Positions 5,768 through 18,230 of a stretch of DNA of 30,604 bases are shown piece by piece; the stretch's first letter is position 1; every line of letters starts with the position of its first letter. The notes beneath the pieces are model-generated. The model searched no databases. It worked only from the letters and a program-made list of their open reading frames with translations, and was not told the DNA's origin. The position numbers and the translations under genes were made by a program. The DNA comes from Spirochaetaceae bacterium (GTDB taxonomy: Bacteria; Spirochaetota; Spirochaetia; Treponematales; Breznakiellaceae), in contig JAIRMO010000166.1 in NCBI GenBank assembly GCA_031258625.1, positions 1 through 30,604 on the forward strand. The letters run 5' to 3'.

Positions 5768-6853
5768 ATGGCCAAACAGATCCTGGTGGTGGACGATAAC
5801 ATTTCAAGCCTCAAACAGATAGGCGCCCAGCTTACCTCCCACTATGATGTTTCCCTGGCCAAATCCGGAGCCTTGGCCCTACAGATATGTAAAAAGGAGA
5901 AGCCTGACCTCATCCTTCTGGACATCGAAATGCCCGAAATGGACGGTTTCGAGACCATAAAACAGCTCAAAGAGGACCCGGACCTCCATCCCATACCGGT
6001 TATTTTCCTCACCGGCAACCAGGATACGGCAACGGAGATCCGGGCCCTCCAGTCCGGGGCGATGGATTTTATCACCAAGCCCGCCAATAAAGACATCCTG
6101 TTTCACCGGCTGGAACTCCACCTCCAGTTTGCCGCCTACCAATCCTCCCTGGAGCGTACCGTTCGGGAACTGGAGAACAGCATCGTTACCTCCTTTGCGG
6201 AACTGGTGGAATGTAAGGATGATAATGCCGGGAGCCACGCCCTGCGGACCGGAAAGTACATGGAGACCTTCGGCCAGGAATTGCTTGCCTCGGGGGTTTT
6301 TGCGGGGGAACTCACCGAAACGGATGTGGAGATGATGATCCGGGCCGCCCCTTTCCACGATGTGGGGAAGGTCGGTATCAGCGACGTGTTCCTGCTGAAA
6401 CCCGGGCCGCTGACCGCTGAGGAATTTGAGGAGATCAAAAAGCATACGGTGATCGGCGCCCGGTTTCTCGCCACCATCTATGAGCGTACCCCGGAACAGC
6501 ATTACCTTGACTGCGCCCGGTTGATCGCCGGAGGGCACCACGAGAACTTCGACGGTTCGGGCTACCCCGCCGGCCTCGCGGGGGACCAGATTCCCCTCTG
6601 CGCCCGGATCATGGCGGTCATAAACGTCTATGGGGCCTGCATAACCGATCGGATTTACCGCAAGGCCCTGAGCCACGAAGACGCCTGCCGGATCGTCCGT
6701 GAGGGAAGGGGAACGAAATTTGATCCCCGGCTGGTGGACGCGTTTGAGCGGATTCGGGATAAATTTCCCGATTTGGAACTGCCCCCTGAGTCTTTTGTGA
6801 CCCTTCAGGGAAGGAAGCTGCGCCGTGAAGAAAATCCTGGTAGTGGACGATAA
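5768..6853 (+). CDS. Response regulator with HD-GYP domain, degenerate copy
   Basis: The 361-aa protein has an N-terminal receiver (about 4-120) with acidic pocket DD at 9-10, phospho-acceptor Asp52 in LLDIEMPEMDG, Thr82 and Lys104, then an HD-GYP domain (about 140-320). HD-GYP enzymes hydrolyse cyclic-di-GMP. His197-Asp198 (FHDVGK), His226, His257-His258 and the GYP signature DGSGYP at 262-267 are present. However, the segment that is ADVYDAL in the neighbouring paralogue reads INVYGAC here, with Asn286 in place of the family's metal-binding Asp. Activity may therefore be reduced or altered (inference). It is a tandem duplicate of the next gene, overlapping it by 29 nt. A weak GGACGGATGG precedes the ATG. 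Confidence 0.9.
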   Translation: MAKQILVVDDNISSLKQIGAQLTSHYDVSLAKSGALALQICKKEKPDLILLDIEMPEMDGFETIKQLKEDPDLHPIPVIFLTGNQDTATEIRALQSGAMDFITKPANKDILFHRLELHLQFAAYQSSLERTVRELENSIVTSFAELVECKDDNAGSHALRTGKYMETFGQELLASGVFAGELTETDVEMMIRAAPFHDVGKVGISDVFLLKPGPLTAEEFEEIKKHTVIGARFLATIYERTPEQHYLDCARLIAGGHHENFDGSGYPAGLAGDQIPLCARIMAVINVYGACITDRIYRKALSHEDACRIVREGRGTKFDPRLVDAFERIRDKFPDLELPPESFVTLQGRKLRREENPGSGR

Positions 6854-7850
6854 CATCTCAAGTCTCAAGCAAATCGGCGCCCAGCTTGGGGAGAGCTACG
6901 AGGTCTCCCTGGCAAAATCAGGGGCCCTGGCCCTCCAGATCTGTATGCAGGAAAAACCCGATCTCATCCTTCTGGATATCGAAATGCCCGGGATGGACGG
7001 GTTTGAAACCTTAAAACGGTTCCGGCTGAACCGGTATTTGGGAAGCATTCCCGTAATATTCCTTACCGGCAACCACGATACCGAAACCGAGGTCCGGGCC
7101 CTTCAGTCCGGGGCCCGGGACTTTATTACCAAGCCGGTGGAAAAGGACATCCTCTTCCACCGGATAAAGCTGCACCTGGGGTTTTCCGCCTACCAGGCCC
7201 ATTTGGAAAACACCGTGGCCAATCTATCGGAAAGCGTCGCCTTGTCCTTCGCGGAGCTCATTGAATGCCGGGACGAGAATACCGGGGAGCATGTGGTACG
7301 GACCAGCAAGTATGTGGGGATGCTGGGACGCCGGCTCATCGAAAAGGGGATCTTTGTGGAGGAGCTTACCTCTATGGACCTCAGCATGATGGTCCAGGCG
7401 GCCCCCCTCCATGACATCGGAAAAATCGCCATCAGCGATCGGGTACTCCTCAAGCCTTCCCGGCTGGACGATGAGGAATTCGCCGTCATGAAGCGGCATA
7501 CGGTGATAGGGGAGGAGATCCTGGAGAGCATGATATCCCGAACCCCCACCCAGCAATACCTCCAATACGCAAAGCAGATTGCGGCATCCCATCACGAACG
7601 GTACGACGGCAAGGGGTACCCCCGGGGCCTTACGGGGGACGAGATTCCCCTCTGCGCCCGGCTTATGGCCGTGGCGGATGTGTACGACGCCCTGGTGGAT
7701 GATCGGGTTTACCGCCGGGGCATGCCCCCTACCGAGGCCTGCCGTATCATTCTGGACGGGAAAAATACCAATTTTGACGGCCGGGTGGTGGAGGCCTTTG
7801 AGGATATCCATGAAAAAATAGCGGAGGCGGTGTATAAGAAGGGCGTATAG
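6825..7850 (+). CDS. Response regulator with HD-GYP domain, intact copy
   Basis: This 341-aa receiver/HD-GYP protein is predicted to be a cytoplasmic cyclic-di-GMP phosphodiesterase controlled by phosphorylation. The receiver has DD at 8-9, Asp51, Thr81 and Lys103. The HD-GYP domain has LHDIGK with His196-Asp197, His225, His256-His257, DGKGYP at 261-266 and ADVYDAL with Asp285, so every residue missing from the preceding copy is intact. The start is GTG at 6825, inside the end of the preceding gene, with AAGGAAG about 8 nt upstream; translation is probably coupled. The first 20 residues are nearly identical to those of the preceding protein, showing a tandem duplication. Likely phosphodonors are the hybrid kinases downstream. 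Confidence 0.93.
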   Translation: MKKILVVDDNISSLKQIGAQLGESYEVSLAKSGALALQICMQEKPDLILLDIEMPGMDGFETLKRFRLNRYLGSIPVIFLTGNHDTETEVRALQSGARDFITKPVEKDILFHRIKLHLGFSAYQAHLENTVANLSESVALSFAELIECRDENTGEHVVRTSKYVGMLGRRLIEKGIFVEELTSMDLSMMVQAAPLHDIGKIAISDRVLLKPSRLDDEEFAVMKRHTVIGEEILESMISRTPTQQYLQYAKQIAASHHERYDGKGYPRGLTGDEIPLCARLMAVADVYDALVDDRVYRRGMPPTEACRIILDGKNTNFDGRVVEAFEDIHEKIAEAVYKKGV

Positions 7851-7911
7851 TGTCCGGTGGTCGGTCCGATCTTTCTATTAAATTAAAGAGGCTGTTTCAA
7901 AATTTGGTATA

Positions 7912-7926
7912 TTGAGACCGTCTCAA
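7912..7926. promoter_or_regulatory. Perfect palindrome touching the FIST gene RBS
   Basis: TTGAGAC (7912-7918) and GTCTCAA (7920-7926) are mirror arms around one C. The GGAG of the FIST gene's ribosome-binding site follows immediately at 7927. A 1-nt centre favours a protein-binding operator over an RNA hairpin. Function is unproven. Confidence 0.35.
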
Positions 7927-7936
7927 GGAGTAGGGT

Positions 7937-9091
7937 ATGATTACTATGTTGAACGCTTTTACGGAAGAAGTCGATGATATGGAAGCGGCGGTATCGGAGA
8001 TTCTGGAACAATTGGATGTGGACCATAGGCTTTTGGCGCATTCCCTGGGGATACTGCACTGTTACAGTGAGTTCTGCGAAAACGGGATCGTCAAGGCCCT
8101 CTGCGAAAAGCTGCCCTTTGATGTGGTGGGGAGTACCACCTCAAGCCTTTCGGCGTCGGGACGGATGAGCGAAATGGGGCTCGCCCTTACGGTATTGACC
8201 AGCGATACGGTCCAATTTAAGAGCGGCGTCTCAGAGGAGGTGAAGGACAGCGCCGAAGCTCCGGTAACGGAACTCTACAAAAGGCTTATTGATCCCCTTC
8301 CCCGGAAGCCTGCCCTGCTCTTGCCCTTCATCCCCTTTTTAATGATCCCCGGGGGAGATGAGTTTGTCGCACAAATTGACGCCCTCTCCGGGGGAATCCC
8401 CGCCTTTGGGACCCTTTCCATTTCCAATGAAATCGATTTTTCCCGGTGCTATACCATCTATAACGGCGAGTATTACCCCGCCGCGTTGGTACTGACGGCT
8501 CTGATAGGTGACGTGGAACCGATTTTTATGAATACCTCGATAAATGAGGAGAGCATCCTCAAACAGAAGGCGGTGATAACCGAGGTAAACCGGAACCGGG
8601 TCCAAACCATCAATAATATAAAAGCCGCGGCTTACATGGAATCCATCGGCCTTGCCAAAGACGGTAAGATATCGGGGATGGAGTCCACGCCCTTTGTCGT
8701 CGATCTGGAGGACGGTTCCCGGCTGGTCCGGGCCAATATTGGTTCCAATGAACAGGGGGAGATGATCCTCTGCGGGGCGGTACCGGTTAATTCCCCCGTG
8801 GCCTTCGCATCCCAGGGCTTTAACGACGTGGTGGAAACCGCTTCCGAAAAGGCGGCTGAAGCCGCCAAGGCCGCCCAGGGCAGGGGAATCCTGATGTATT
8901 CCTGCGCGGCCAGGTATTGGGTCCTGGGCTTGCAGATTCGGGCGGAACTTGAAGCGGTGGAGGCATGTATCGCCGGTACGGCGCCCTATCACCTCGTCTG
9001 TTCCGGCGGAGAAATATCCCCGCAATTCTTAAGTAACGGGAAGGTGGCGAACCATCTTCAGAATAATTCCCTCATCATCTGTATTCTCTAG
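7937..9091 (+). CDS. FIST-domain sensory protein
   Basis: The 384-aa protein matches the FIST_N plus FIST_C architecture: an N-terminal alpha/beta sensory part (about 30-220) with [13 protein letters not shown] near 63-75, and a C-terminal part (about 230-375) with [14 protein letters not shown] and the closing Gly-rich [12 protein letters not shown] domains are proposed to bind small ligands, possibly amino acids, and often accompany histidine kinases and c-di-GMP enzymes (established family context). No membrane segment is seen. The ATG has a strong AAGGAG 6 nt upstream. The stop codon is part of the TAGGAG that serves the next gene, a soluble hybrid kinase, so the two proteins are probably made together. 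A ligand-sensing partner role for the kinase is inference. Confidence 0.88.
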
Positions 9092-9099
9092 GAGCCCCT

Positions 9100-11499
9100 A
9101 TGTCCGATGAAAGGCGGAGTCTGCAGGAAGAAAACGCCGCCCTACAGTTACAATTAAAAAAACTCAACCGCCAGCTTGCCGTCCAGCAGAACGCTATGAT
9201 CCGCGCCGAGCGGATGTCCAACCACTGGGATCGGCTGGCTTCGGTGGTCCGGAAGGAGCAGTCCAAGCAGGAAAAATATATGAATATGATGCTGGAAAAC
9301 AGTTCCAACATCATCATCTTACTCGACGGGGAAGGCCGTTTTGCCTATTGTACCAAGACTTTTCTCAGAATCATAGGGATAGAAAATTTCGGCCTTATCG
9401 ACGGACATCCTTTTTTGGACGTTTTTGAACGTTTGGGTAACCCGGTTTTCTCGGAGCATATTAAAACATACATCGACCGCGCGATACAGGAATTCGGGAC
9501 CATCCGGGGGCAGGAAGTCCTGGACCTTTCCGGATCCGGGGAGAGTATGATCTACACCACCAATATCACCGCCATGCGGGACGCGGCGGGGGCCGTGGAA
9601 GGAATCATGCTCCTCTTTCACGATGTTACCGAAACCCTCCGGGCCAAGGAAGCGGCTGAGGCGGCCTCCAAGGCGAAAAGCACCTTCCTGGCTACCATGA
9701 GCCACGAAATCCGTACCCCCCTGAACGCGATTATCGGCCTTTCGGAGATACAGCTCCAGAAGGATCTGCCTGAGGATGTCCACGCCGATCTGGAAAAGAT
9801 CTACAGTTCCGGTTCGGTCCTCCTGGGGATCATCAACGATATCCTGGATATTTCCAAAATCGAAGCGGGGAATTTTGAACTTGTCCCGGTGGAATACGAT
9901 ACCCCCAGCCTTATCAACGATACGGTACAGTTAAACATCGTGCGGATCGGTTCCAAAGCCATTACCTTTAAACTCAACATTGATGAGACCCTACCGGGAA
10001 GATGGTTCGGGGATGAACTGCGGGTAAAGCAGATCCTCAACAATATTCTTTCCAACGCGTTTAAGTACACCCGGGAGGGAACGGTTACCCTCCAGGTCCG
10101 GTGGGAGCGGCGGGGGGAAGATGCCTTTTTGATCTTTATCGTCAAGGACACGGGTATCGGAATCCGGAAGGAAGATATCGGGCGGCTTTTCTCCGAATAC
10201 AGCCAACTGGACACCCAGGCGAACCGGAAGATCGAGGGTACGGGGCTGGGGCTTTCCATCACCAAAAATCTGGTGGAGCTGATGGGGGGCGTCATGAGCG
10301 TGGAAAGTGAATACGGCCGGGGCAGCGCTTTTACGGTGGAGATCCGTCAGAAGATCGTCGATAACCGGCCCATAGGCCCCGACGTGGCCGTCAACCTCCA
10401 GTCGTTCCGGTTTGTTGAGACCCGGGCGAACCGGGGCAGGAATTTGCTGCGGACCCACATGCCCTACGGTAAGGTCCTGGTGGTGGATGATGTGGCGACC
10501 AATTTGGACGTGGCCCAGGGGCTTCTCCTGCCCTACGGCCTGACCATTGACTGCGTTCAGAGCGGACCGGAGGCGATAGAAAAGATCCGATCCGCTTCGG
10601 TGAAATACGACGCGATATTCATGGATCACATGATGCCCGAAATGGACGGCATTGAGGCGGTCCGGATCATCCGTAATGAAATCGACACGGATTATGCCCG
10701 GACCGTACCGATCATCGCCCTTACCGCCAATGCCCTGGCGGGAAATGAGGAAATGTTCCAGGCAGCGGGGTTCAACGCCTTCCTCGCAAAACCCATTGAT
10801 ATTATGCGGCTGGATATCCTGCTTAACCAGTGGGTACGGGACAAGCAGAGTGAAGAAACCCTCTGGAAAGCGGAACAGGAGCAGGGGAGCGGGGACGCTG
10901 CCGGGGAAGCCTCAGGCGGCCTTGAGGGCCTTGAGGTACCGGGGCTGGACCTAAAAGGGGGGATCGCCCGCTACGGCGGGGAAGAGATATACTTCGGGAT
11001 CCTTCGCTCCTATGCGGTCCATACCCCGGAACTCCTGGAACGGCTCCGTTCCCTCGCCCGGGAGACCCTGGGGGACTATGCCGTTACGGTCCACGGTATC
11101 AAGGGGGCCAGCTACGGGATCCGCGCCGAGGAAGTCGGCAAACAGGCGGAGGCCCTGGAAGCGGCCGCCAAGGCCGGGGATTACGAGGAAGTGGCAAGGG
11201 ACAACAACGGCTTTATCGAACAGGCGGAGGCGCTGCTTGCCCGCATTGGGGACGTGCTGCGGAATAGAGAGACGCGGAGGGAGGCAAAGCAAAAGGCCCC
11301 CGCCCCGGATCCGGCCCTCCTGGAGAAACTCCTGGCGGCCAGCAAACGGTTCAAGTCCACCGTAATGGAAGAGATCCTCGCGGAACTTGAAGGGTACGAA
11401 TACGAGTCCGGGGGAGACCTGGTGGAATGGCTTCGGGAACAGATGGACAATCTGGAATATGAGGCCATTCAGGACCGGCTGGAAGGGATGAAAGGATAG
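9100..11499 (+). CDS. Soluble hybrid histidine kinase (PAS-HisKA-HATPase-REC-HPt)
   Basis: The 799-aa protein has no membrane span. Order: N-terminal coiled coil (about 5-65), PAS domain (about 62-180), HisKA with His202 in [14 protein letters not shown], ATPase domain with N-box [14 protein letters not shown] at 311-324, DTGIGI at 350-355 and GTGLGLSI at 380-387, receiver (about 457-580) with Asp509 in [11 protein letters not shown] and Lys564, and HPt with His665 in [10 protein letters not shown] 60-residue helical tail (about 738-799) follows and is shared with the downstream paralogue. All relay residues are present, so a complete His-Asp-His phosphorelay is predicted. The ribosome-binding site AGGAG overlaps the FIST stop codon. 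The FIST protein is the likely sensory partner and the HD-GYP receivers the likely outputs (inference). Confidence 0.95.
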
Positions 11500-11507
11500 C
11501 GGAGCAG

Positions 11508-12530
11508 ATGATATCAACCAGGGAAGATCAGATCGAACGGCGGCACCTCTTTATTATCAATCCCAAGTCTTTCCCCCTGCAGCAGGATCTGAACCGGATC
11601 CTTTCCCATATCGAGGGGTACTTCAAAGAAAATCCGGGGCAAGACTATGACATTCACCTTTCCCGTTATCCCCGGGATGCGGTCAGCGTCGTCAGAAAGC
11701 GGATAGGGCAGATCGGGGCGGACCGGATCCTCCGGGTATATGCCCTGGGAGGGGACGGGATCATCTTTGACTGCCTGAACGGCCTCATCGGGTCCCCTCA
11801 TGTGGAGCTTGCCCTGATGCCCTACGGAACCGGCAGCGATTTTGTCCGCGCCTTTGGGGATGAACATTACACACAATTCCGAAACATCGAATTACAGGTT
11901 AACTCCCCGGTGATCCCCACGGATGTGATCCACTGCGGGAATAACTGTGCGCTGAATTTCTGCGCCGTGGGCCTGGAAGCGGCTTCGGTGATCAAAACCC
12001 TCTCTCTGAACCGGCGTTTTGAGAAGGCCCGTTTCCGCCTTCCCGCCTTGAACGGTTTGTTCTATGTTATTGGGGGGATGGGCGCCGCCTTTGATCGGGA
12101 TGTTATCGGTCAGTACTATGAGATAGATGCCGACGGGGAGGATAGGAGCGGCTTCTATAGTATCATCAATATCGCCAACGGCCCCTGTTACGGATCCGGC
12201 AGGTCCGCGGTTCCCACCGCCGTACCGGATGACGGCGCCTTGGATATGATGGCGGCGCGGCAGGTCGGTTCCCTCAAGATCTTAAGGCTTATCCCCGAAT
12301 ATTTAAAGGGAAGGTACTATAAGTATCCGTCTATCTGTACCCTGAGGCGGGTACAGAAGGTGTCCATCCGTTCCGAATCCCCCCTCCTGGTCAATCTGGA
12401 TGGAGAGTCCTTTTTTGATTCGGAGCTTACCATAGAAATTATCCCCAGTGCGGTGAATATAGTCGCCGTCAACAACCTGGCATATCGGAGGAGGGGAGAA
12501 TACCATGAACCACATTACTCCGTCAAATAA
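11508..12530 (+). CDS. Diacylglycerol-kinase-family protein
   Basis: The 340-aa protein has the fold of the DAGK catalytic family (YegS/DgkB-like lipid kinases). It begins with a beta strand HLFIINPKS (13-21), has the nucleotide loop GGDG at 81-84, the block [13 protein letters not shown] at 105-117 that corresponds to the family's GTxNDFAR motif, and the C-terminal LVNLDGESF motif. The residue after GGDG is Ile rather than the usual Thr, so the site is slightly atypical. Such enzymes phosphorylate diacylglycerol or related lipids at the membrane. It starts 8 nt after the hybrid kinase and overlaps the next kinase by 26 nt, which places it firmly inside the signalling operon. Why a lipid kinase is there is unclear. 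Confidence 0.87.
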
Positions 12531-14274
12531 GACCGGTGATGTTTTGTTTTATCGCCTGGCAAACAGCCTCGCGATCTTTGCCATATTCCTCTTTGGATTT
12601 TTTCGCGGCCTGGATCACGCGGCCCAGGGCGCTTACGGAAAGTTGGTGGAGATGGCAATTTTCGCATCTCTTGCGGTTATCTTGCAGATCCTGATAATCT
12701 GTCTCGTGCGGAATGTCCGGCTTATTGCCCTCTTTGTTCCTTTGGCGGTGTTTACCTCTTATACCATAGGTTCCCTGGTGATCGGGAATTTCCGTCATTA
12801 CTTTATTGTATATATTGCCCTCTGCGTCCTGGCGGGGGTGTACTTTCAGCCCTGGAGCATGTTGAGATTCATCATCATCACCAATATCGGCATTATCACC
12901 ATGGCCTTTTCGGGGATTTTCCTTCAGGGGGATAGGGGCTTTGACCGGGCCAGCACGCTCCTTATCGACTGGATTATGGCCTTCAGCAGTTCCGTGTTTC
13001 TCTATCTGATTGCCGGTTTTACCCGGCGCAAAACCTCCGCGTCGGCTAAGGCGGAAACCGCCTTTAGCACCCTCATGTCGACCACCCCCAATCTTATCGC
13101 CCTGGTGGATGAATTGAACTGTATCACCTACATCAGTAAACCCCTGGCGGAATTTGCCCGCATCAAAAATCCCGCCCTGCCCGTGGGGCGGCCCATCCTC
13201 GATCTCTTTGGGGATATAAACGTCAAAATGATGATCGCCGAAATCCTGGAGAACGGGGGGGCCTACGACGACACCAGGGAGATTGTCTGGAATGGGGAAT
13301 CCCGGTATTTCAAGATCCTTTCCGGTAAATTCTCCGCCGATACCCGGGGGACCTTTATCGATATCACCGACATCAGTTCGGTGGTACAGGCAAAGCTGGA
13401 AGCGGAGGCGGCCAGCCAGTCCAAGAGCGCATTCCTGGCCACCATGAGCCATGAGATCCGCACCCCCCTGAACGCGATCATCGGTCTTTCGGAGATTGAA
13501 ATCCAGAAAGATCTCCCCACGGCGACCCATCAGGATCTGGAAAAAATATATAACTCCGGTTCCAGCCTTTTGGGGATCATCAACGACGTTCTGGATATCT
13601 CCAAGATAGAGGCGGGCAGCTTTGAGCTTATCTCAGTGGAATACGATACCCCGAGTTTGATTAACGATACGGTACAGCTTAACATCGTCCGTATCGGTTC
13701 CAAACCTATCGAATTTGAGTTGGATTTAGATGAAACCACTCCTTCCCGGTTTTGTGGGGATGAGCTGCGGGTAAAGCAGGTTTTGAACAATATCCTCTCC
13801 AACGCCTTTAAGTATACCCAGGAGGGTAAGGTGCTCCTCCGGTTTCGATGGGAAAGGCACGGGGAGGATGCCATACTCTTTTTTACCGTGCGGGATACCG
13901 GCCGGGGGATCAGGCAGGAGGATATAACCAAACTTTTTGCCGAGTACAGTCAACTGGATACCAAGGCGAACCGGAAGATCGAGGGGACCGGACTGGGGCT
14001 TTCCATCACTAAAAAACTCATCGAGATGATGGGGGGAACCATCCTGGTGGAAAGCGAATACGGCCATGGCAGCGCCTTTACCATCTCCCTGCGCCAAAAG
14101 ATCGCCGACGAGCGGCCCATTGGTAAAACGGTAGTAGAAAACCGAAATCCTTCCGGTTCAGGGATGATAAACGCAGCCGGGGGAAAAACCTTATCCGTTC
14201 TTATATGCCCTATGGCCGGGTCCTGGTGGTGGATGACGTGGCTACCAATCTGGATGTGGCCCGGGGGCTCATGA
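12505..14274 (+). CDS. Membrane hybrid histidine kinase, sensor-kinase half (frameshifted)
   Basis: The reading frame gives six hydrophobic segments (about 18-36, 48-68, 72-92, 98-114, 119-140, 150-170), a PAS-like domain (about 183-295), HisKA with His316 in [14 protein letters not shown], and an ATPase domain with [20 protein letters not shown] (464-469) and GTGLGLSI (494-501). After Lys561 the frame stops resembling its paralogue and runs 28 residues of Trp-rich nonsense to a stop at 14274. The receiver continues in the -1 frame (next entry). The crossover lies at G GGA AAA (14181-14187), a canonical slippery heptamer shape. A -1 shift there gives a 920-aa protein matching the upstream hybrid kinase. 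The start is backed by GGAGGAGGGGAG 6 nt upstream. Confidence 0.88.
14181..14187 (+). other. Candidate -1 frameshift heptamer G GGA AAA
   Basis: In the kinase frame the codons are GGG GGA AAA ACC. Re-pairing one base back gives GGG AAA AAC CTT, which enters the receiver frame exactly where the paralogue's [10 protein letters not shown] aligns with [10 protein letters not shown]. The same run of G5A5 would also be a natural site for an indel mutation or a sequencing error. Confidence 0.55.
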
Positions 14275-15266
14275 TGCCCTACGGCCTTTCCATAGACTGC
14301 GCCGGTAGTGGTCAAGAGGCCATCAGAAAAATCCAGGAAGAAAAGATGCGCTACGACGCGATATTTATGGATCACATGATGCCCGAGATGGACGGTATTG
14401 AGGCGACCCGGATTATCCGTAATGAGATTGACACGGAGTACGCAAAAAACGTTCCTATTATTGCCCTCACCGCCAACGCTATTGTGGGGAATGAGGAAAT
14501 GTTCCTTTCCAATGGTTTTAACGCCTTTATCTCAAAACCCATCGATATTATGCGGCTGGATACCATCCTCAACCAGTGGGTACGGGACAGACAGACCGAG
14601 GAGATCCTGCGGCAGGCGAAGAATATGCAAAAAGAGTCCGCTGCCGCCGAACCGGTGGAGGAATTATCCTCCGTGATTCTTGACGGTTTTGAGATAGAAG
14701 GGGTAGACTTGGAAGCGGGGATCGCCCGATATGGGACAAAGGAAACGTACCTGAACATCCTCCGTTCCTATGTGATCCATACCCCGGAACTATTGGAAAA
14801 ACTCCGTAATCTTTCCCGCGAAACCCTTGCCGAATATGCGGTTACGGTCCACGGCATCAAGGGGGCGAGTTACGGTATCTCCGCCGGAGCGGTCGGGGAT
14901 TGGGCGGAAAAACTTGAACACGCGGCCAAGGCCGGGGATTACGATGCGGTGAACGGGGAAAACGCTTCTTTTATAGAAAAAACAGAAGTTCTGGTTGCCG
15001 GAATCTGGAATCTATTACGGGAGGCTTTGGAACAGGACGCTGAAAAACAAAAGGCCGCGGCTCCGGACCGCGTCCTGCTGGAAAAACTACTGGATGCCGG
15101 CAAGCGGTTTAAATCCACGGTGATGGAGGAAGTTTTATCGGAACTCGAAGAATATGAATATGAAGCCGACGGAGACCTGGTAACCTGGCTCCGGGAGCAA
15201 TTGGATAATCTGGAATATGACGCCATTCGGGATCGACTAGAGTCGCTATTATTGGTACAACCATAA
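14205..15266 (+). CDS. Hybrid kinase receiver-HPt half (continues the split kinase)
   Basis: This frame holds a receiver (DD at 10-11, Asp56 in [11 protein letters not shown], Lys111) and an HPt domain with His216 in TVHGIKGAS, followed by the same helical tail as the soluble kinase. The ATG at 14205 has no ribosome-binding site and lies inside the receiver's first strand; the homology begins upstream at 14187. It is therefore best read as the C-terminal part of one hybrid kinase starting at 12505, joined by a -1 shift. In joint numbering the receiver Asp is about 623 and the HPt His about 783. If no frameshifting occurs, it would be unexpressed or a stray receiver-HPt protein. The stop is followed at once by a GC-rich hairpin. 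Confidence 0.82.
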
Positions 15267-15284
15267 CCCCGGTTTAATCCGGGG
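15267..15284 (+). terminator. Short GC hairpin after the split kinase
   Basis: CCCCGG (15267-15272) pairs with CCGGGG (15279-15284) around TTTAAT, directly after the stop codon. T-rich sequence begins about 10 nt later (GGATTTTTG), so it is only a fair candidate terminator. Confidence 0.4.
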
Positions 15285-15342
15285 CGGTCGTGGATTTTTG
15301 TAAATTTTTTAAAAAAAATACCGATAATATCGAGTAGAGGTA

Positions 15343-15348
15343 TATAAT
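15343..15348 (+). promoter_or_regulatory. Candidate -10 box for the kinase-less paralogue
   Basis: TATAAT lies 26 nt before the start codon in an AT-rich gap. A small palindrome CGATA-A-TATCG is just upstream near 15322-15332. With the hairpin at 15267-15284 this suggests that the next gene has its own promoter. No good -35 box is seen. Confidence 0.35.
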
Positions 15349-15374
15349 ATCCAAATAAAGAGGATGGCGGATCC

Positions 15375-16889
15375 ATGGATAGACAAACCCATGATCAGAT
15401 ATATTTAAAAAAATCCAGGTTGCTCTCAATTATTGGGATCACTGCCTATGGATTTATACGCTCGGTGGAGATTATTGCCCGGGGGCCGAATTACCGGAAC
15501 GCCCTGGCGGTAGGTTTATTCTGCGGATGTATTGTGGCGGCCCTGCTTGTCCTTATGTATTTGGTGAAAGATAAGGCGAAGTTGGCCTTTTATGTCCCCT
15601 TTATTACCTTTGTTGGTTTTACGGCGGGATCGGTTTATTTAAAAGATTTTGAGTATTTTTTTATTATCTGGTTAGGCATTTGTGGAATCGGATGTATATA
15701 TCACAACTTTAAAAAACTTTTATCCTTTTTTATAACCTCCAATGTGATAATCTTTTTTTTATTTTTATTTAATTTTATTACCCAAAATACCCTGCCCCAG
15801 GCCATGGCCCAGTGGTTTTTCGCGGTATGTACCTCGACCTTTTTTCTTATATCGGCACAATTTTCATCAAACACAGACGGTCCTGCCGACAAGGTGTTTG
15901 ACGCGTTCTCTCTCCTCATGGAGACCACCCCCCATCTGATGGCGGTGGTGGATGGGGCCGGCGGTATTATCTCTGTGAGCAGGGGGTTAAAGGAATTTAT
16001 CCGGGTTAAGGATCCCGCCGCGATTGCCGGTAGGCCCCTGCTTGATCTTATTGACGATCCTGAATTCAAGATGATGATAAAGGAAATCCTTGAAACCGGG
16101 GAGTTTTTTGAGGGTACTAAAAAAATTACCGATAACAGGGGAACTCCCCGGGGTTTTAAGGTGTTTTCAAAGCGGCTTGAGGGAGATGTCCCGGGGCTTT
16201 TTATCGATATCGCCGATATTACGGATGTCCAGCTCCAAAACAAGATGGAAAAAACACCCCCGGGACAAAAGGCCTTCCGTACCGCCATAAATTATGAAAT
16301 AAGGCCCCCCTTCAACGGCAGCCAAAACAGGACTCCGGTCCGGTCCTATATGCCCTATGGGAAGGTACTGGTCGTGGACGAGGGGATGGTAAGTCCGGAT
16401 GCGGTCAAGAACCTGTTGCTGCCCTATGGGCTTTTAATAGACTGTATCTCAAGCGGCCGGGATGCCGTAGAACGGATCCGGAACGAAACAATAAAATACG
16501 ACGCGGTCTTTATGGATCCCCTGCTGCCCAGGATAGACGGTATTGAAGTAATCCGGATCATCCGGGATAAAATAGGTACGGAATACGCAAAAAACCTTCC
16601 CATTATCGCTTTGACCGTCAGCCCCGCGGGAGACGAGGAACGGCTCCTCTCCGGTGGTTTTAACGCCCTTATCCAAAAACCCATCGACAGCATATACCTG
16701 GATACGATCCTGAATCAGTGGGTGCGGGATAAACAGCCGGAGGAGATCCTGTTGAAAGCAGAACGGGAACAGGCGGAAGGGGGAGGTGTCCAGGATGTGT
16801 TAGAAAACCTGGCCATAAAGGAACCCCATAACCCCCTTCCCGGCAGTGGATTGATTGAAAAAAACGCCGAATGCCGTCACGCGGGTTGA
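15375..16889 (+). CDS. Membrane PAS-receiver protein: hybrid kinase lacking its kinase core
   Basis: The 504-aa protein aligns along its length with the upstream membrane hybrid kinase but lacks the centre. It has six hydrophobic segments within 12-162 and a PAS-like region (about 174-285). The remnant H-box reads FRTAINYEIRPPFN at 301-314: the phospho-His is Tyr307 and the Thr-Pro-Leu of the box is Pro-Pro-Phe. Twelve residues later the receiver begins ([14 protein letters not shown]). About 230 residues, the whole dimerisation/ATPase domain, are missing in frame. The receiver keeps Asp335-Glu336, phospho-acceptor Asp381, Thr414 and Lys435. The HPt and tail are also missing; the protein ends in a divergent 50-residue stretch. 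The frame is otherwise clean, so it looks maintained rather than decaying. It may act as a phosphate sink or dominant partner (inference). Confidence 0.88.
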   Translation: MDRQTHDQIYLKKSRLLSIIGITAYGFIRSVEIIARGPNYRNALAVGLFCGCIVAALLVLMYLVKDKAKLAFYVPFITFVGFTAGSVYLKDFEYFFIIWLGICGIGCIYHNFKKLLSFFITSNVIIFFLFLFNFITQNTLPQAMAQWFFAVCTSTFFLISAQFSSNTDGPADKVFDAFSLLMETTPHLMAVVDGAGGIISVSRGLKEFIRVKDPAAIAGRPLLDLIDDPEFKMMIKEILETGEFFEGTKKITDNRGTPRGFKVFSKRLEGDVPGLFIDIADITDVQLQNKMEKTPPGQKAFRTAINYEIRPPFNGSQNRTPVRSYMPYGKVLVVDEGMVSPDAVKNLLLPYGLLIDCISSGRDAVERIRNETIKYDAVFMDPLLPRIDGIEVIRIIRDKIGTEYAKNLPIIALTVSPAGDEERLLSGGFNALIQKPIDSIYLDTILNQWVRDKQPEEILLKAEREQAEGGGVQDVLENLAIKEPHNPLPGSGLIEKNAECRHAG

Positions 16890-16919
16890 ACCGCCCCGGG
16901 GCCGGGGGATAAAAACCGG

Positions 16920-18230
16920 CTAGACGTTCCGGGGCCGATTGTCCTGGACCCGCTTGGCTTTACCTTCGGATACCGGGAGGCTGCCTGATTCGTGGAGTTC
17001 CACCCGGGGGTTGATGGTGATGGAGGACTGGAGGGTCCGGCGGATCTTTTCCCGCAGGGCGTTTAAAGGCCGGGTGTCGTCCATAAAAATGTCAGGCCCC
17101 ACCTCGGTTTTTACCGTCAGCCGGTCTAACATCCCGTCCTTTTCTATTACGATAAGGTAATTGTTCCCCACCTCCTTGATGGACATGATCACTTCCTCAA
17201 TCTGACTGGGGAAGAGGTTCACTCCGTTGATGATGAGCATGTCGTCGGTACGTCCGGTGATACGGTGGATCCGGCGGTGGGTTCTGCCGCAGGAACAAGG
17301 TTCGGTGTAGAAGGCCGAAAGGTCCCGGGTACGGTAACGCAGGATGGGGGTGGCTTCCCTGCATAATATGGTCAGAACCAGCTCGCCGATTTCTCCGTCC
17401 CGGGCCGGTTCCAGCGTATCGGGGTTGACGATTTCGGCGATATACCCGTCCTCCCAAATATGGAGTCCGTCTTTACCTTGACATTCAAAGGCCACTCCCG
17501 GACCGTTCATTTCCGAAAGTCCGTAGGAATTGTATACGTCAATGTGCAGGAGCTCCTCAATACGCCGGCGGGTATCCTCGGAATAGGGTTCCGCCCCGGC
17601 AAAGGCCCGTTTGAGCTTAATGCTTTCCCGGCTTACCCCCTCTTCCCGCATTTTGGATTCCACATGGAGGAGGAAACTTGGGGTGGCGTGCAGCACGGTG
17701 GTACCAAAATCCTGCATCAGTTTGAATTGCCGGGTGGTGTTCCCCACCCCGGAGGGGATCACCAACATCCCCACCTCCTCAGCTCCGGCATGAAACCCCA
17801 AGCCCCCGGTAAAAAGGCCGTAGGTGATCATGTTCTGGAACACGTCGGTGGCGTTACATCCCGTCCCATAGATACACCGGGCCACAAAACCGGTCCATCG
17901 GCGTATATCTTCCCGGTTAAAATAGATGGTGGTGGGGGTTCCTGTGGTACCGCTTGAGGCGTGGAGCCGGATCACCTCGTCCTTGGGGATGCTGAGAAAA
18001 CCGTAGGGAAAACCTACCCGCAGGTCCTGCTTGGTAGTAAAGGGAATTTGCTTCAGGTCCTCAAGACTTTTTATATCGGCTTCGCTTTTGATCCCCGCCT
18101 TGGGGAGCCGATCCTGATAAAAGGGGGTCCGCAGGGCGTAGCTTACCATGGTTTTAAGCTGTCTAAGCTGCCAGGCTTCCAACTCCCGCCGGGGGAGGGT
18201 CTCCATCTCGGGGTTCCAATACTGGTACAT
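16920..18230 (-). CDS. paaK: Phenylacetate-CoA ligase family protein 2
   Basis: A 436-aa AMP-forming aryl-acid CoA ligase homologous to the one at 4126-5427. Motifs: ASSGTTGTPT at 91-100, SYGLSE at 235-240, RYRTRD at 298-303, EPCSCGRT at 310-317, [20 protein letters not shown] at 326-345 and the catalytic-lysine region EGKAKRV at 422-428. The start ATG shares its A with the stop codon of iorB (TGATG), so the two are translationally coupled. The pairing with iorB fits oxidative decarboxylation of aryl-pyruvates, where the oxidoreductase makes aryl-acetyl-CoA and the ligase interconverts acid and CoA ester (known archaeal/anaerobe theme). It converges on the signalling island. Confidence 0.93.
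   Translation of the reverse strand: MYQYWNPEMETLPRRELEAWQLRQLKTMVSYALRTPFYQDRLPKAGIKSEADIKSLEDLKQIPFTTKQDLRVGFPYGFLSIPKDEVIRLHASSGTTGTPTTIYFNREDIRRWTGFVARCIYGTGCNATDVFQNMITYGLFTGGLGFHAGAEEVGMLVIPSGVGNTTRQFKLMQDFGTTVLHATPSFLLHVESKMREEGVSRESIKLKRAFAGAEPYSEDTRRRIEELLHIDVYNSYGLSEMNGPGVAFECQGKDGLHIWEDGYIAEIVNPDTLEPARDGEIGELVLTILCREATPILRYRTRDLSAFYTEPCSCGRTHRRIHRITGRTDDMLIINGVNLFPSQIEEVIMSIKEVGNNYLIVIEKDGMLDRLTVKTEVGPDIFMDDTRPLNALREKIRRTLQSSITINPRVELHESGSLPVSEGKAKRVQDNRPRNV

Follow-up and report, generated by a model that had tools for sequence, protein, structure and literature searches.

Several bacterial sensor proteins related to histidine kinases regulate without catalysis of their own; the papers on them are cited here for excerpts of each. 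RocA of group A Streptococcus has six putative membrane helices, needs no kinase activity and interacts with the intact sensor kinase CovS in the membrane (PMC7028121). DivL of Caulobacter works without an autophosphorylation residue or an ATPase domain (PMC9491836). In Corynebacterium glutamicum, a ChrS pseudokinase made catalytically inactive by a frameshift in its CA domain affects regulation in a way that requires a paralogous kinase (PMC9491836). Here we investigate a gene of an uncultured, treponeme-like Spirochaetaceae bacterium whose layout is a variant of this known pseudo-histidine kinase idea. It lies on contig JAIRMO010000166.1 (assembly GCA_031258625.1), all 30,604 nucleotides of which were analysed as one window. 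The frame 15375-16889 (plus strand, 1515 nt, free of internal stops) encodes a protein of 504 amino acids (aa), called X here, which has a membrane domain, a PAS domain and a receiver and has lost the kinase core.

DivL is said to carry a Tyr at the His position, as X does, and reportedly keeps the DHp/CA architecture and has no receiver, unlike X; ChrS reportedly has no receiver either. RocA keeps DHp and CA, with no receiver in the domain analysis quoted, whereas X combines PAS and receiver and has no DHp or CA (PMC7028121). The ChrS variant differs from X in being laboratory-evolved and in keeping its conserved His; in the same work native ChrS and HrrS heterodimerized, whereas truncated ChrS showed no interaction in the same assay (PMC9491836). 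Pseudo-receivers (PsR) are without one of five catalytic residues and are regulated otherwise (PMC12632262). Two relatives of X, P0006 and P0008, resemble them in having Ala at the second acidic position, whereas in X, with Glu taken as an acidic residue, none of the five positions is lost.

An earlier note on this DNA, made from its letters, knew of no described family with exactly this layout. We found no pseudokinase with the layout of X among the literature matches listed, and the titles and abstract starts of papers joining termite gut, treponema and histidine kinase describe no such protein; kinase-dead sensors as such, however, are known. The pseudo-histidine kinases compared keep DHp or a degraded catalytic region, whereas in X DHp and CA are gone. 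Is X then the relic of a duplicated kinase? Or, has it been maintained for contacts with other proteins? Comparison with its relatives points to a real, probably functional lineage of kinase-less sensors.

Domain architecture

The membrane domain is modelled by AlphaFold as six helices (residues 3-36, 40-63, 67-88, 90-110, 112-131 and 140-165) in a block of moderate confidence (predicted local distance difference test, pLDDT, 42-87). The PAS domain, with a block pLDDT of 68-94, matches PAS_9 at E 5e-5, under the gathering score, and TIGR00229 over its cut-off. The receiver matches PF00072 (E 6.4e-12), gives a fold match in the structure search and is mostly confident in the AlphaFold model. 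These are the three domains read by the earlier note. Nothing in Pfam matches the membrane domain over cut-off, and the structure-search matches were filled by receivers and PAS domains, the membrane domain not having been searched on its own.

The description of the missing parts was equally accurate. HisKA, HATPase and HPt have zero Pfam matches in X, in line with the HPt loss that the note had proposed. The H-box reads NYEIRPPFN, with Tyr307 (codon TAT, 16293-16295) in place of the His, and sits in a low-confidence linker (residues 292-322, pLDDT <50). The stretch from the H-box to the MPYG motif in front of the receiver measures 19 residues in X versus 252 in the intact kinase at 9100-11499, so that 233 are missing where the note had estimated about 230, lost in frame.

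Of the features of a hybrid histidine kinase, X has the attached receiver, and neither a HisKA/DHp domain with an acceptor His nor a HATPase. It is a pseudo-histidine kinase where this means descent from a sensor kinase without catalytic function, as worded in the excerpt of PMC12632262: its membrane-PAS part and receiver are common to kinase-bearing proteins and the kinase core is absent. It is not a pseudo-receiver protein, since Asp335, Glu336, Asp381, Thr414 and Lys435 are all present, the last three as the note had claimed; P0006 and P0008 would be classed as pseudo-receivers.

A lineage without the kinase core

A protein search finds five relatives at 74–88% identity to X: P0004 (88%, 506 aa), P0005 (87%, 621 aa), P0008 (84%, probably a fragment), P0007 (75%, 592 aa) and P0006 (74%, 614 aa). 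All five are without the same kinase core. The HPt region is retained in P0005-P0008, while X (P0001 in the alignments) and P0004 both lack about 116 residues of it; the spacing between two flanking motifs is 48–50 residues in these two versus 164–167 in the other four. More distant members have lost more or other parts. P0009-P0011 (62–68% identity over about 56% of X) have lost the receiver as well, and P0012 (39% over 89%) and P0013 (64% over 35%) keep HATPase and have no PAS or HisKA match. Clade members have lost the kinase core, some also receiver, PAS or HPt, and such frames as were found are open. These different losses let one ask which part carries the function.

The phospho-sites vary too. 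The H-box position reads Y, H, Y, Y, S and Y in P0001 and P0004-P0008, and the HPt phospho-His is present in P0005, P0006 and P0008, whereas P0007 has Arg at that position and P0009-P0011 have Ala, Cys or Gly. The receiver Asp of P0012 is replaced by Gln. The C-terminal tail EKNAECRHAV or a near variant ends 9 of the 11 clade members, including ones without a receiver, and is missing from P0012 and P0013; it is absent from all 1,465 other frames (1474 frames scanned, 1402 distinct).

The earlier note had described X as a paralogue of the kinase encoded immediately upstream. There is distant kinship, but the two belong to separate lineages. Their membrane-PAS halves are 34% identical, and in a membrane-PAS tree the ten clade members, including X, form one group with 100/99 support and a long stem. 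The membrane kinase of the window lies outside that clade and is joined at 100/100 to its counterpart in a sister species of the same genus (genome G002, 92% complete). The tree has 46 sequences (58 rows minus 14 duplicate or overlapping ones, plus P0012 and P0013 with the membrane part only); P0008, which lacks a membrane part, is not among them. X is therefore not a recent copy of the neighbour. That X arose from the upstream kinase by a recent local deletion, which the note had named as one case that would undo its reading, is ruled out by this tree together with the five relatives without the same core. Copying of the receiver from the neighbour was also considered and is ruled out by a receiver tree with 70 of 89 receivers included, which sets six clade members apart at 100/100. 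The synonymous divergence (dS) between the two receivers is 0.85, a value without saturation control from which no inference is drawn.

The contact surface of the receiver

In published complexes the receiver contacts an HPt partner through the beta1-alpha1 loop, alpha1 and the beta3-alpha3, beta4-alpha4 and beta5-alpha5 loops (PMC11224324, in part), and in a kinase-regulator complex the contacts lie mostly in alpha1 and the beta5-alpha5 loop (PMC5231405, in part). We placed these contact residues on X by motif, in a mapping of our own. The reference is a set of 83 close receivers, obtained from the best 110 of 245 by removing duplicates and the 6 clade members; 72 of their positions show an invariance of at least 95%.

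Of these invariant positions, 9 of 11 mapped contacts are changed in the clade versus 11 of 61 others (Fisher p 8e-5); by whole segments the counts are 15 of 24 versus 5 of 48 elsewhere (p 8e-6). In the six receiver-bearing clade members 64–82% of the contact positions are changed versus 20–25% of the other invariant positions. As controls we took 86 more divergent, distinct receivers from frames of >600 aa with an H-box motif, 82 of which also have a GTGLGL-type motif. On average 17% of contacts and 24% of other positions are changed in them; the contact maximum is 55%, none reaches 64%, and contact change exceeds non-contact change in 16. In the 44 controls of matched overall divergence the contact mean is 11% and the maximum 36%. 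Some contact positions are also variable in the controls (337 is kept in 40 of 86, 339 in 46). Asn340, by comparison, is kept in all 83 close and all 86 control receivers and is Ser or Thr in all six clade members; residue 336 is Asp in all of both sets, Glu in four clade members and Ala in P0006 and P0008.

At the level of sequence, conservation in the rest of the X receiver equals that of receivers attached to kinases and similarly diverged. The change is specific to the contact surface, which is not what simple decay would be expected to yield. Since the receiver core is kept and the surface for phosphate transfer is changed, X probably acts by binding to partners and not by handing on phosphate. 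The same comparison suggests a test, made on sequences, of whether an orphan receiver belongs to a phosphorelay.

Constraint on the gene

The earlier note took the stop-free frame as a sign of selection. An open frame alone is weak evidence; the case for selection comes instead from constraint on the deep branches. We evolved the X sequence neutrally to the observed difference counts, with 300 runs per relative. None of the 300 runs stayed free of stops for P0006, and none for P0007, and the replacements observed in both are more conservative than in all 300 neutral runs. The evidence of constraint is therefore strong for the deep branches, where pure decay is unlikely, but weak towards the two closest relatives.

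Judged by identity to the relatives, the membrane domain and the receiver are the best-conserved parts of X. Together they show higher conservation than the remainder of X (p 0.012, 0.0002, 0.044 and 0.001 for P0004-P0007; these values are uncorrected and the split was picked after the table had been seen). The membrane domain is 90% identical to those of P0004 and P0005 and 71–74% identical to members without a receiver. Between X and P0004 the receiver is identical at 117 of 127 residues and the PAS at 97 of 116, with 61 differences overall; between the kinase 9100-11499 and P0041 the figures are 120 of 127 and 118 of 125, with 57 differences in 797 residues. If P0004 and P0041, for both of which ena is the sole listed source, share one organism, the X receiver would be changing about as slowly as that of this kinase, and the X PAS and X as a whole faster.

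How X may act

We put the chances about evenly that X is a maintained pseudo-histidine kinase, a catalytically dead hybrid kinase that acts by protein contacts. Known kinase-dead sensors lend plausibility to regulation by contact: RocA interacts with CovS, and ChrS and DivL function in the absence of kinase activity. The six-helix and PAS part may still sense a signal or pair with another membrane sensor. The receiver could be a binding module that uses its remaining faces, on the alpha4-beta5-alpha5 side, a surface that often mediates dimerization and/or the binding of partners (review PMC12632262, in part). X might then tune or titrate the partners of intact kinases from outside the phosphorelay. 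We offer more tentatively, with the balance somewhat against it, the specific proposal that in this treponeme clade one hybrid kinase, having lost its catalytic core in several in-frame layouts, has turned the receiver into a decoy or adaptor blind to the phosphorelay, its docking surface for His partners rewritten and its remaining faces, which receivers of the intact kinases share, kept along with the tail.

Several points weigh against a maintained, contact-based function. The positions changed in the receiver were already known before the contact sets were fixed. The surface change is one event on one stem, so the counts over six relatives are not independent, and rewiring of the surface to another His partner would leave the same picture. 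For the two nearest relatives the simulation gives weak evidence: 17 of 300 runs stay stop-free for P0004 and 11 of 300 for P0005, and the replacements look neutral, with 38 and 210 of the 300 runs, respectively, equally or more conservative. The protein search admits only open frames of similar length, a bias that favours the finding of constraint. The gene is rare: orthologues of X were found in its own genome only, among 195 genomes of the family and, at E <= 1e-65, among 390 of the order. GC content at third codon positions (GC3) is lower in X, at 0.547, than in all neighbours measured (0.590-0.731).

A narrower form of the contact reading, which overlaps it, is that X pairs through its membrane and PAS parts with intact membrane kinases and tunes them as RocA does CovS. 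The high conservation of the membrane domain in the clade would suit this role, and RocA, a pseudokinase with six putative membrane helices that interacts with CovS, is a precedent (PMC7028121, in part). However, X has no DHp, so that dimerization, which the earlier note had suggested, would be possible only through the membrane and PAS part; just 34% identity joins that part to the neighbouring kinase, whose own frame is interrupted in the assembly. We regard this pairing as doubtful, though a real possibility.

It is on the whole unlikely that the clade is a relic family, in which a duplicated kinase, no longer catalytic, is eroding piecemeal by in-frame deletions, with open frames explained by chance and database bias. 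Rarity, absence from the corresponding site in G002, low GC3 and the neutral-looking replacements to P0004 and P0005 would all suit erosion, as would the loss of different parts and phospho-sites in different members (the HPt His in P0007 and P0009-P0011, the receiver Asp in P0012). Against it stand the deep branches, where no neutral run is stop-free, the receiver, whose non-contact change (0.20-0.25) is close to the control mean of 0.24, and the tail kept in most members.

Distinctly improbable is the phosphate sink, or receiver fed in trans, of the earlier note, with the HPt of intact kinases or a rewired His protein phosphorylating Asp381 and X draining or storing phosphate at the membrane: the residues for the chemistry are kept, but the contact surface is changed in all six receivers, beyond all 86 controls, and residue 336 has departed from an otherwise constant Asp, to Ala in two.

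Features and neighbouring genes

Table 1. Coordinates of X, its parts and the adjoining features in the window
Feature	Position	Strand	Basis
Neighbouring membrane hybrid kinase (separate from X; a distant paralogue that may be a partner)	12505..15266	+	Pfam, frames
Spacer before X	15267..15374		consensus scan
Kinase-less hybrid sensor protein X	15375..16889	+	504-aa frame; Pfam receiver and weak PAS
Membrane domain, six predicted helices, residues 3-165	15381..15869	+	AlphaFold model
PAS domain, residues 173-288	15891..16238	+	PAS_9, TIGR00229, AlphaFold
H-box stub NYEIRPPFN, residues 306-314, Tyr307 replacing His	16290..16316	+	alignment, AlphaFold
Receiver domain, residues 326-452; Asp335/Glu336, Asp381, Thr414, Lys435	16350..16730	+	Pfam, fold match
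Approximate junction where the HPt part (~116 residues in P0005-P0008) is absent from X and P0004	16764..16790	+	flanking-motif spacing
Conserved C-terminal tail GLIEKNAECRHAG	16848..16886	+	motif scan of clade and other frames

The earlier note aligned X with the kinase encoded immediately upstream. The paralogue is present, but it is broken into two frames, which the note did not mention: 12505-14274 with HisKA and HATPase, and 14205-15266 with receiver and HPt, overlapping at 14205-14274. Its counterpart in G002 is one frame of 923 aa (locus L093, 2109-4880, minus strand). The ratio of nonsynonymous to synonymous substitution rates (dN/dS) against that counterpart is low for both pieces (0.19 and 0.20), so the frame was either broken recently or misassembled. 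A scan for promoter and terminator consensus sequences over 15200-17000 gave no excess over shuffles.

The gene downstream of X is convergent, 89% identical to its G002 counterpart and, we presume, PaaK-like. In G002 an empty gap of 67 bases separates the membrane kinase from this gene, and the only match there to the membrane-PAS part at E <= 1e-9 is that membrane kinase. G002 thus keeps both flanking genes without X, which makes X a variable gene at this site.

Within the family, one other match reached E <= 1e-58, in genome G116; it falls on the receiver of a kinase frame of 800 aa. A scan of genome contigs gave 48 loci, none with more than 63% best-segment identity to X; the only one that covers most of X (L045) has a frame that bears a kinase. 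Viral contigs gave no match to X. Besides the window's, 11 membrane-PAS frames shorter than 600 aa were found in other genomes. Eight were rejected as kinase-less copies because they still match the kinase core of the neighbour (L099, L109, L114, L116, L126, L129, L130 and the longer frame of G148:C589). The other G148:C589 frame, which adjoins the longer one with its match interrupted by stops, and a frame in G186 that runs off the contig end were rejected as well. L135 (G077:C24:2500-8000) has at 748-2532 a frame of 594 aa with an X-like PAS, which matches only the PAS and not the neighbour's kinase core.

Farther upstream of X lie two receiver-HD proteins (5768-6853 and 6825-7850), a FIST protein (7937-9091) and the PAS hybrid kinase (9100-11499). 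This kinase is followed by a diacylglycerol-kinase-like gene (11508-12530), which overlaps the start of the membrane hybrid kinase. A relative of this gene adjoins or is near such a membrane kinase in L096, L097, L098, L099, L100, L101 and L102, and in L098 it is fused to another kinase. The membrane part of X (15375-15899) has a GC3 of 0.451, the lowest of the stretches measured (the others 0.547-0.731). The cassette of two receiver-HD genes, FIST gene and PAS hybrid kinase (5768-11499) recurs in the related contigs L046, L048, L049, L050, L051, L052, L053, L054 and L055.
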